Shown here: positions 12,777 through 42,385 of the stretch, piece by piece
How the letters are laid out: every line of letters starts with the position of its first letter
Numbering within the stretch: position 1 is the stretch's first letter
Origin: Blastococcus sp. TF02A-26
Lineage (GTDB): Bacteria > Actinomycetota > Actinomycetes > Mycobacteriales > Geodermatophilaceae
Reading direction: 5' to 3'
Assembly (NCBI RefSeq): GCF_003319125.1
Contig: NZ_QOHG01000011.1
Coordinates: 62,001-126,000, forward strand
DNA length: 64,000 bases
The notes under the pieces: model-generated
Databases searched by the model: none
What the model saw: the letters and a program-made list of their open reading frames with translations, nothing else
Told to the model about the DNA's origin: nothing
Position numbers and translations under genes: made by a program

Positions 12777-12795
12777 GTCGACCGTTATCCCCAAC
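12777..12795 (-). repeat. dispersed 19-bp repeat, copy A
   Basis: Exact GTCGACCGTTATCCCCAAC on the + strand. It lies between the 3' end of coaA (12862) and the DUF5999 gene. Read as GTTGGGGATAACGGTCGAC it points towards DUF5999, about 205 bp away. Confidence 0.85.
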
Positions 12796-19295: not shown

Positions 19296-19314
19296 GTCGA
19301 CCGTTATCCCCAAC
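19296..19314 (-). repeat. dispersed 19-bp repeat, copy B
   Basis: Exact GTCGACCGTTATCCCCAAC on the + strand, in the 162-bp gap between the divergent M50 and LysE genes. Read as GTTGGGGATAACGGTCGAC it points towards the M50 gene at about -41 to -59, a position used by activators. Confidence 0.85.
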
Positions 19315-28254: not shown

Positions 28255-28285
28255 TTGACATAATGTGCATTATCGGCGGTAGGGA
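28255..28285 (+). promoter_or_regulatory. consensus-like -35 overlapping a 14-bp palindrome
   Basis: TTGACA at 28255-28260 overlaps ATAATG-TG-CATTAT (28260-28273). TAGGGA at 28280-28285 could be a -10 at 19-nt spacing. The layout suggests a repressed or MerR-type promoter, yet no convincing gene follows. Confidence 0.45.
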
Positions 28286-39546: not shown

Positions 39547-39565
39547 GTTGGGGATAACGGTAGAC
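39547..39565 (+). repeat. dispersed 19-bp repeat, copy C (promoter of the recombinase-like gene)
   Basis: GTTGGGGATAACGGTAGAC, one mismatch (A for C at position 16) from the three exact copies in this orientation. It overlaps the TAGACT -10 and covers about -26 to -8 of the following start codon, a repressor-like position. Confidence 0.85.
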
Positions 39566-39566
39566 T
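39561..39566 (+). promoter_or_regulatory. leaderless -10 of the recombinase-like gene
   Basis: TAGACT ends 6 nt before ATG 39573 and lies inside repeat copy C. Confidence 0.6.
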
Positions 39567-39572
39567 CCCGCA

Positions 39573-40418
39573 ATGGCACGCGAGTGGCAGCTCCCCCTGC
39601 CCGAGATGCCGGCGCCGCCCCCGGAGCGGGCGTGGCGACGGTTGACGGCGCCCGAGGGGTACGAACCGCAGTGGCGGCGGCTGGTCGACGCCGCCCTGGA
39701 ACTGGGGCTGGGCCCCGACGACCTGGCCGAGGACGGCCTCGAGCCGGTGGCCGTCGCGCGCGGCTGGCGGCCGGCGACGGTGACCCTGTACAGCAAGGTG
39801 GCCCGGTACGGGGGCGTGGCGCTGCCCGTGCCGAGGACGCCGGAGCCGGACCAGGACACCCTGGACCTGCGGCCGCTCGCCGAGATCCGCAGCGAGGACC
39901 CCGAGCACCTGCGCGCGGTGACGTGGTGCGCCCTCGCCCTGGGCTGGCCCGCCGCCGTCGGGCAGTTCCGCTCGCTGCGGCGCGACCAGGTGCACCCGTC
40001 GGCGGGTCGCCTCGTCGTCCGCACCGAGGACGGCGAGTGGTCGGTACCCGGCGCGACGACGGCCTGGCACGCGTGGGAGACGGTGCGCGAACGGTTCCCC
40101 GCCCTGGCGAGCAGCCCGTGGGTGCTGCCCGCGCTCCGCCGCGGCCCCGGTCTCGACTCACGGATCGGCGGGCGGCTGTCGAACCAGGCGCTGCAGGTGA
40201 CGTTCGGCAAGCACGCCGTCGGCACCGGGCACCACCTGCGGGCGACCGCCGGCCCAGGCCGCCGGGACCGTGCCGCCGCCCTGGCCGAGGCCTACCGGGA
40301 GCTCTCCTACGACTCCTTCCGGCGGCTGGCACTGGCCGCCGGGGCGCCGCCGGTCAGCAGCCGGGGCGTGGTCCGTGCGGAGCGGGCCGTCGCCCGCGAG
40401 GCCCGCCGCGCCGGCTGA
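39573..40418 (+). CDS. degenerate tyrosine-recombinase-like protein
   Basis: A 281-residue protein I cannot assign firmly. The layout resembles tyrosine recombinases: an N-terminal helical part with GWRPATVTLYSKVARYGG (residues about 65-82), a segment LRAVTWCALALGWPAAVGQFRSLRRDQV (about 113-140) matching the catalytic-domain helix but without the first catalytic Arg, then GHHLRATAG with an HxxR box near 217, and AYRELSYDSFRRLALAAG near the end, where the nucleophile Tyr would sit. It may therefore bind DNA without cutting. No integrase-bearing island surrounds it. The dispersed repeat overlaps its -10. Confidence 0.55.
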   Translation: MAREWQLPLPEMPAPPPERAWRRLTAPEGYEPQWRRLVDAALELGLGPDDLAEDGLEPVAVARGWRPATVTLYSKVARYGGVALPVPRTPEPDQDTLDLRPLAEIRSEDPEHLRAVTWCALALGWPAAVGQFRSLRRDQVHPSAGRLVVRTEDGEWSVPGATTAWHAWETVRERFPALASSPWVLPALRRGPGLDSRIGGRLSNQALQVTFGKHAVGTGHHLRATAGPGRRDRAAALAEAYRELSYDSFRRLALAAGAPPVSSRGVVRAERAVAREARRAG

Positions 40419-40513: not shown

Positions 40514-42385
40514 TCACATCAGCGAGAGCTGCTCCGGCACCTCGGTCATCGGCCGGACCGCGGAGGGCGCTGCCGCCGGCAGGCCTGCGGCCGGGTCCTC
40601 GCGCCGCTCGGGCAGGCTCCCCGCCGGGAACGCCGCCTCGTCGTCCCCCGGGATGCCGGCGTCGACCCCGCGCGCCTCTCCCCCGGCCTGCCGGTCCAGG
40701 CCGTGCGCCGCCAGCAGCGGCGCCACCCGGTCGGCCAGCCACCGCCGGTACTCGGCGGGGACGTAGGCGCCGCGCCCGTACAGCTGGCGGTAGCGCGGCA
40801 GCAGCTTCGGGTGCTCGCGCCCCAGCCAGGCCGTGAACCACTCGCGGGCGCCCGGTCGCAGGTGCAGCGGGACCACCGTGACCCCCGTGGCGCCGGCGGC
40901 CGCGATCGCGCCGATCGCGGCGTCGAGCTCCGCCCGGCCGTCGGTCAGGCCCGGGAGCACCGGGGCGAGGAAGACCCCGCAGGGCAGGCTGGCGTCGGTG
41001 AGGGTGCGCACGAGGTCGAGGCGGGCGCGCGGCGAGGGCACCCCCGGCTCCAGGGCGGCGTGCAGCTCCTCGTCCCAGAGGGCCATCGAGACGCCCAGCC
41101 CGACAGGGACGTCACGGGCGGCCGCGGCCAGCAGGGGGACGTCGCGGCGCAGCAGCGTGCCCTTGGTGAGGATCGAGAACGGCGTCCCCGAGTCGGCCAG
41201 GGCGCCGATCACCCCGGGCATCAGGCGGTAGCGGCCCTCGGCCCGCTGGTAGGGATCGGTGTTGGTGCCGAGCGCCACGTGCTCCCGCTTCCACGAGCGA
41301 CGCCCGAGCTCGCGGCGCAGCACCTCGACGAGGTTCGTCTTGACCACGATCTGCGTGTCGAAGTCCCGCCCGCTGTCCATCTCCAGCCACTGGTGGGACC
41401 CGCGGGCATAGCAGTTGTGGCTGATCACGCCGTTGGCGATGAAGTCGCCGGTCCCGGTGGTGATGTCGAACATGGGCAGGTCGAGGCCCAGTGGCTCGAT
41501 GCTGACCACCCGGAGATCGGCGTCGCTCTCGACCGCGATGCCCTCGACGCCGCACTTTCGCCGGATCGCGGGGTCGACCTCGTGGACGAACCGCAGATGC
41601 TCCCGGAGCCCGCCCCGGACACCGACGGTCTTGACGCCTGTCGGGAGTCGGCGGTCCGCGAGGTACTCACGTGTCCGGTCCAGGCCCTCGACGTCGGCGA
41701 GCGCGAGCCGGAAGCGGTGCTGGTCGCCGTGCCGGCGGCCGGGTCGCGCGTACCGGTAGACCTTCAGGTTCGCGTCGCCGCGGATCATGCCCGTGAGGTA
41801 GCCCCGTCGGTAGTCCGGGCAGACCGTGACGGGCTCGGCGGAGCGCCCGAAGCCGAGCAGCGTGTCGTTCGTCGTCAGATGGGGGCGCTGGGCAGGTCCG
41901 CACATCGCACCGGTCACGTGCTTCCAGCCCCTACCGCTGAGGAAGCGGTGATCACCGCTCGCGACGAGCTCGGTCCCGTCGCCCAGGGTGATCAGGTATG
42001 CGGTCTTGACGGTCGACCAGTGGGCGATGACCTCCGTCGTCACGTAGTGGCGGTAGGTGTCCCGCTTCTCGGTCCCGACGATCCGGTCCCCGACCCGGAG
42101 ATCGGCGAGGGGCTTCTGGCGGCCGTCCGCCATGAGGACCAGCGTGTCGCCCACGAGGCAGTAGGTGCAGGCATGGCTGCAGCCGCGGTAGGGATTGACC
42201 GTGTGCCGGAACGGCATCGCGGAGTCGGCCGGGACGGCGTTCAGGGCCGACCGCGCCAGCACCTCGTGGAAGGTCTGCCCGGGGAACTCCGGCACCTCGA
42301 CGCTGCGCAGCAGGCCGCGGACCGACGGCATGCCGGGCAGCGTGGTCCCGTCGTCCGCGTCCAGTCGCTGACCGTCCCACCGCAC
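40514..42385 (-). CDS. intein-containing radical SAM protein (Rv2578c family)
   Basis: A 623-residue precursor. The extein is a radical SAM protein: residues 1-75 and 325-623. The cluster motif CxxxCxxC is Cys69, Cys73 and a third Cys that is either Cys76 (intein residue 1) or, after splicing, Cys325 (SHN|CYARG). Downstream extein motifs include TDPYQRAEGRYRLMPGVI and GVFLAPVLPGLTDG. The family resembles SplB-like radical SAM proteins; the substrate is unknown. GTG 42385 is preceded within 9 nt by an SOS-box-like palindrome. M. tuberculosis Rv2578c is the counterpart. Confidence 0.9.
   Translation of the reverse strand: MRWDGQRLDADDGTTLPGMPSVRGLLRSVEVPEFPGQTFHEVLARSALNAVPADSAMPFRHTVNPYRGCSHACTYCLVGDTLVLMADGRQKPLADLRVGDRIVGTEKRDTYRHYVTTEVIAHWSTVKTAYLITLGDGTELVASGDHRFLSGRGWKHVTGAMCGPAQRPHLTTNDTLLGFGRSAEPVTVCPDYRRGYLTGMIRGDANLKVYRYARPGRRHGDQHRFRLALADVEGLDRTREYLADRRLPTGVKTVGVRGGLREHLRFVHEVDPAIRRKCGVEGIAVESDADLRVVSIEPLGLDLPMFDITTGTGDFIANGVISHNCYARGSHQWLEMDSGRDFDTQIVVKTNLVEVLRRELGRRSWKREHVALGTNTDPYQRAEGRYRLMPGVIGALADSGTPFSILTKGTLLRRDVPLLAAAARDVPVGLGVSMALWDEELHAALEPGVPSPRARLDLVRTLTDASLPCGVFLAPVLPGLTDGRAELDAAIGAIAAAGATGVTVVPLHLRPGAREWFTAWLGREHPKLLPRYRQLYGRGAYVPAEYRRWLADRVAPLLAAHGLDRQAGGEARGVDAGIPGDDEAAFPAGSLPERREDPAAGLPAAAPSAVRPMTEVPEQLSLM
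41414..42160 (-). other. intein inside the radical SAM gene
   Basis: A 249-residue intein (precursor residues 76-324). Block A is CLVGDTLVLMADG, block B contains SGDHRFLS, block F is PMFDITTGTGDFIANG, and block G ends ISHN before Cys325. One dodecapeptide-like motif (GYLTGMIRGDA near 196-205) hints at a LAGLIDADG endonuclease, but no second motif is seen and the length is short, so homing activity is probably lost. The region looks AT-richer than the exteins. Confidence 0.85.

Follow-up and report, generated by a model that had tools for sequence, protein, structure and literature searches.

A candidate chromosomal replication fork trap in the Geodermatophilaceae, with a recombinase-like protein as its putative terminator

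The 64,000-nucleotide stretch of the Blastococcus sp. TF02A-26 genome analyzed here (the window) contains four copies of a short asymmetric site, arranged as two oppositely oriented pairs around a dif-like sequence, together with a gene for a 281-residue protein whose own promoter overlaps one of the copies. We conclude that these elements probably constitute a chromosomal replication fork trap of the Geodermatophilaceae, a family of soil bacteria (hereafter the family). The layout matches that of a fork trap. Its components are new, and they seem to be unrelated to those of the two systems known from E. coli and Bacillus. With slightly less assurance, we think it likely that this is a third, independently evolved chromosomal fork trap, the first in the Actinomycetota in the literature consulted, in which a Xer-type recombinase has been turned into a catalytically dead polar roadblock, and that some lineages have compressed it to a facing pair of sites 165 bp apart at the blocker's own gene. 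At the level of sequence, the sites, their polarity, dif, its near-antipodal position, the co-occurrence of site and protein and the promoter site are established. The elements in the window are as follows.

12781..12795, - strand: outer left Ter-like site, core GTTGGGGATAACGGT read on the - strand
19300..19314, - strand: inner left Ter-like site
28255..28276, - strand: dif-like site CCGATAATGCACATTATGTCAA, between the oppositely oriented site pairs
39547..39561, + strand: inner right Ter-like site, overlapping the promoter of the candidate terminator gene (-10-like TAGACT at 39561-39566)
39573..40418, + strand: candidate terminator protein gene (281 residues), predicted tyrosine-recombinase fold without catalytic residues
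49188..49202, + strand: outer right Ter-like site

The initial annotation of this DNA had reported a dispersed 19-bp repeat, and that observation is confirmed. Exact copies are found at 12777 (+), 19296 (+) and 49188 (-), and a copy with one mismatch at 39547 (-); read in the GTTGGGGATAACGGTCGAC form, the orientation is - at 12777 and 19296 and + at 39547 and 49188. The A that follows each exact copy is the W position of the conserved site WGTTGGGGATAACGGT, beyond which the 19-mer extends. In the whole 4.68-Mb genome these four, confined to 36 kb of a single contig, are the sole copies at up to two mismatches, with two more at three. The copies appear to be intergenic, as had been stated; among the neighbouring genes, those with a Pfam match include genes for a uridine-kinase-like protein, an M50B peptidase, a GCS2 ligase, a DSHCT helicase and a YegS-like kinase. 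A crude gene caller places the copy at 19296 inside a frame, which overlaps the M50B gene on the opposite strand. The copy at 39547 does overlap a -10-like TAGACT, and 7 bp separate the end of the 19-mer from the ATG. Two features that the initial annotation passed over, the ++/-- orientation and the presence of dif between the pairs, are the keys to the identity of the system.

The dif-like sequence is the only match in its genome at up to three mismatches, and the dif pattern has exactly one match in each of the 18 genomes searched. The Frankia alni dif printed in PMC3025954 has a core in common with it. For 10 of the 12 one-contig genomes in our set (G009 and G094 were left out), dif lies at a distance of 0.5-3.6% of the genome length from the antipode of dnaA. 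The groups of sites are thus located opposite oriC, as in a fork trap. Skew served as a proxy for polar fork arrest. In G024, a test over 520 kb placed the best split 85 kb to the left of dif, and splits at -86 to -70 kb and at -21 kb scored almost as well; at the local scale of 60-160 kb per genome, GC and AT skew were dominated by noise. A strong tyrosine-recombinase match (G000:C5:25259-25804, +), the product of which is presumably XerD-like, lies outside the window on the contig that carries dif, at a distance of about 65 kb from it.

Inspection of the terminus regions of 12 genomes, one of which (G079) has neither the protein nor a site, yielded 61 sites that differ from the 14-mer core at no more than one position. 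Of these, 59 have the orientation predicted by their side of dif, - on the left and + on the right. The two exceptions, one each in G024 and G032, reflect a single type of arrangement: a divergent -/+ pair, 165 bp apart, is located before the gene, and both of its sites are on one side of dif, at a distance of about 20 kb. These pairs are opposed but lie beside dif; in most genomes the opposed groups flank it. At two mismatches, two further sites fit the rule and one breaks it. A scan of the order gave a similar picture: among the 150 sites listed, every - site is to the left of every + site in all 32 contigs that carry both strands, and 16 more contigs carry a single strand only. Because related genomes share sites by descent, neither sites nor contigs are independent draws.

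That sharing by descent is what might be cited for the notion that the repeat is a chance or inherited one without function, a notion that we find scarcely credible. In 100 dinucleotide shuffles of the window there was no match to the 19-mer at up to three mismatches, the core has been kept between genomes as the flanks diverged, and the ordered polarity just described would not be expected of such a repeat. The site is a single asymmetric core with neither a palindrome nor a repeated half-site. Among 116 non-promoter sites, A or T occupies position 0 in 93% and T occupies position 15 in 66%, both outside the selected positions; the conservation at positions 1-14 is partly built in, since the sites were selected at no more than one mismatch to the 14-mer. 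The number of matches at this threshold ranged from 2 to 11 in the 17 protein-bearing genomes counted, a few distant chance matches included. Far-off one-mismatch matches of the form GATCACGG or GATGACGG (in G000, G079, G092, G094 and G107) were taken as chance. The innermost exact cores, among the sites listed, are 10.8-40.4 kb apart, or 0.165 kb apart in two genomes.

The initial annotation had proposed a self-repressing DNA-binding protein with several chromosomal sites. That the protein is simply a transcription regulator of a few genes, resembling the SPbeta repressor MrpR, is in our estimate improbable. MrpR/YopR and SroF, repressors of SPbeta-like phages, share the tyrosine-recombinase fold without catalysis that is predicted here, and MrpR recognizes a dispersed 15-bp motif. 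MrpR is a phage repressor, however; the sites described here belong to the chromosome, show polarity about dif and, save for that of the gene itself, are not consistently placed at promoters. When the 11 own-promoter copies and 8 sites within crudely called frames are set aside from the 61 sites, the next gene on the 3' side is co-directional with the site in 14 of the remaining 42 cases and opposed in 28. Orientation is set by the side of dif and not by gene direction, and an ordinary regulon is not supported. Roles as DnaA boxes, parS or KOPS were set aside; the motif is dissimilar to these elements and the copies are few.

The gene itself was always preceded by a site. We collected 79 named loci, which span Blastococcus, Trujillonella, Geodermatophilus, Modestobacter, Goekera and other members of the family (one record, titled Bacillus, falls within Blastococcus), and a site with at most two mismatches was found before the gene in all of them; 76 were found by script, and for the other three (L142, L155 and L159) correction of the start for missing N-terminal residues puts the site at -26 to -30. 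The proposed overlap of the repeat with the gene's own promoter is therefore a general property of these loci. In 24 of the 79 (within L089-L162) there is a second site, on the - strand, 165-199 bp upstream of the start, which forms a narrow divergent pair with the first. In G024 and G032, the 165-bp pair comprises the only two matches in the whole genome at up to one mismatch.

Protein and site also travel together. The gene is present in 93 of the 112 family genomes in one copy each, with two oddities: in G017 one gene is split between two frames, and G095 has a fragment. It is missing from all nine genomes of one genus (g9), from G098, which is 72% complete, and from the nine genomes of g6, g7 and g8, a group that includes several incomplete assemblies. 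In a sample of 397 genomes from the order, the protein was found in 67, all of the family; the exact 14-mer was present in 67/67 of these, in 0/8 family genomes without the protein and in 3/322 genomes outside the family, and a reversed control pattern matched in 2 genomes. A 45-residue match outside the family in the order sample (G408, E 8e-4) is attributed to chance. Likewise, the 19-mer at up to two mismatches occurs in 78 of the 93 genomes with the protein and in 3 of the 19 without it, while its reversed control occurs in none of the 112. In a sample of 396 genomes from the phylum we found no relative of the protein besides the window's own. The initial annotation had linked the protein to the repeat by conjecture; this comparison across genomes did not refute the link and the co-occurrence supports it. 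The g9 genomes, such as G079, lack the protein; no exact core was present in the eight that were scanned, and G079 retains dif. Whether the system was lost or gained late, this genus offers a natural control.

What kind of protein is this? Structure prediction gave the core-binding and catalytic-domain fold of the tyrosine recombinase superfamily, so that the fold claimed initially was not refuted. The loss of the first catalytic Arg, also claimed, holds throughout: in an alignment mapped by motif and by eye, the Arg I column contains P in 45, T in 29 and A in 5 of the 79 members. The His of HxxR is kept in 9/79 and the second Arg in 70/79. The mapping covered Arg I and HxxR, and judged by these two elements the set expected of an active tyrosine recombinase (Arg-Lys-HxxR-His/Trp-Tyr) is not kept. 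The prediction thus supports the description of the protein as a tyrosine recombinase that has lost catalysis. None of the 79 members matches PF00589 at E<=1, and 15 ordinary PF00589 matches are found elsewhere in the genome that contains the window. Among solved structures, neither the protein nor its profile found a credible match by sequence, and a profile alignment to 19 Xer/integrase proteins from five genomes, those with a usable frame among 24, scored 20.0 (P 0.07), a value reached by 1 of 100 shuffled decoys and hence a hint only. Residues 241-255 (AYRxLSYDSYRRLAL) are among the best-conserved stretches and fall where the model is poorly predicted, near the end that carries the catalytic tyrosine in recombinases.

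The predicted fold might suggest an active recombinase, or a mobile element, with dispersed core sites, which was the other proposal of the initial annotation. We regard this as highly improbable. In addition to the altered catalytic residues, the site lacks a palindrome, and in 9/9 genomes examined by script the gene has kept to the same side of dif. Prophage stoperators and mobile elements were rejected as well: no relative was found in phages, plasmids or viral contigs, and Pfam, PHROG and NCBIfam gave no credible family, only scattered matches to 1 to 4 of the 79 members with a best E of 0.015. Of the earlier interpretation, then, the protein-repeat link, the predicted fold and the own-promoter site are supported, and the active recombinase and the ordinary regulon are not.

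The comparison with known fork traps was made with E. coli K-12 as a control, in which our scan recovered TerB and TerC on the + strand to the right of dif and TerA on the - strand to the left; 24 bp lie between the GTTG of TerB and tus. The strand polarity about dif is equal to that seen here. As in Tus-Ter, there are short asymmetric sites in two opposed groups that flank dif opposite oriC, and the region contains a terminator gene of its own, here a candidate one, whose promoter includes a site. The inner right site in the window and E. coli TerB (L251) even have TGTTG...AAC in common, with equal polarity, although the proteins are unrelated and the resemblance may be due to chance. The protein differs, since Tus (PF05472) was found in 0/18 genomes with the E. 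coli control positive, and a profile comparison with E. coli Tus found nothing (Prob 0.1); a predicted tyrosine-recombinase fold takes its place. The site spacings given for Tus traps in the part of PMC8707476 consulted are 18 kb (Dickeya), 56 kb (Edwardsiella), 197 kb (Salmonella) and 507-564 kb (Cedecea). With the RTP-Ter system of Bacillus the likeness lies in the proposed function and in opposed site groups at the terminus, as described in the portions of PMC10331603 and PMC12809603 available to us. By the same accounts, RTP sites consist of two half-sites with a dimer on each, in contrast to the one asymmetric core found here, and RTP (PF02334) was detected in 0/18 genomes, with the B. 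subtilis control positive.

The proposed fork trap may operate as follows. The 281-residue protein would bind every site, always in the same orientation. At the 5' (GTTGGGG) face an arriving replisome would be blocked, and one that arrives from the 3' face would be let through, so that forks may enter the dif region but not exit. Seated on the -10 region, the protein would repress its own promoter, as Tus is reported to do at TerB (PMC8707476, in the part consulted). Where the two facing sites lie 165 bp apart before the blocker's gene, the trap would have been compressed, and fork fusion would therefore be pinned to one promoter.

The main rival to this interpretation is that the sites organize the terminus by acting on SMC or FtsK. 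In such a scheme, they would mark the dif region and either unload or stop SMC or steer FtsK/XerCD, with polar sites facing the oncoming machine. This deserves attention because the predicted fold is the XerD fold and because XerD at terminus sites unloads SMC in B. subtilis, according to a passage of PMC10945525 that cites Karaboja 2021. Further, any machine that moves along each arm would give the identical polar symmetry about dif. We nevertheless consider it unlikely. The sites are few per genome, the isolated 165-bp pair of G024 and G032, 20 kb from dif, fits two facing fork blocks better than an unloading zone, and an own-promoter site with such geometry is the layout of Tus-TerB. XerD unloading sites are not known to be polar. 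The protein shares with XerCD-dif and with the B. subtilis SMC unloader its predicted fold and its terminus location, but its catalytic residues are not kept, its sites are unlike dif and the genome has ordinary PF00589 genes in addition to it.

Two side results concern the window. There were no Rfam matches in it, and at 40514-42385 (-) it encodes a radical-SAM protein, which we take to be of the Rv2578c type, with an intein-like insert (Intein_splicing and Hint matches, both under their cut-offs).

Papers from 2019 to 2026, in the parts available to us, name two unrelated fork traps, Tus and RTP only, and describe them as confined to a few clades (PMC6549158, PMC10331603, PMC12809603); the scope of PMC13220808, judged by its title, is E. 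coli and B. subtilis, and its text, where consulted, does not mention other groups. Our search of openly licensed papers found no fork trap reported in the Geodermatophilaceae group. If our interpretation is true, this family would provide a third convergent case in a distant phylum, which would argue for selection that keeps fork fusion confined to the dif region. It would also show that a recombinase fold is able to become a polar block to a helicase. Finally, it would offer a natural comparison among genera with a trap, a genus without one and lineages with a 165-bp trap.
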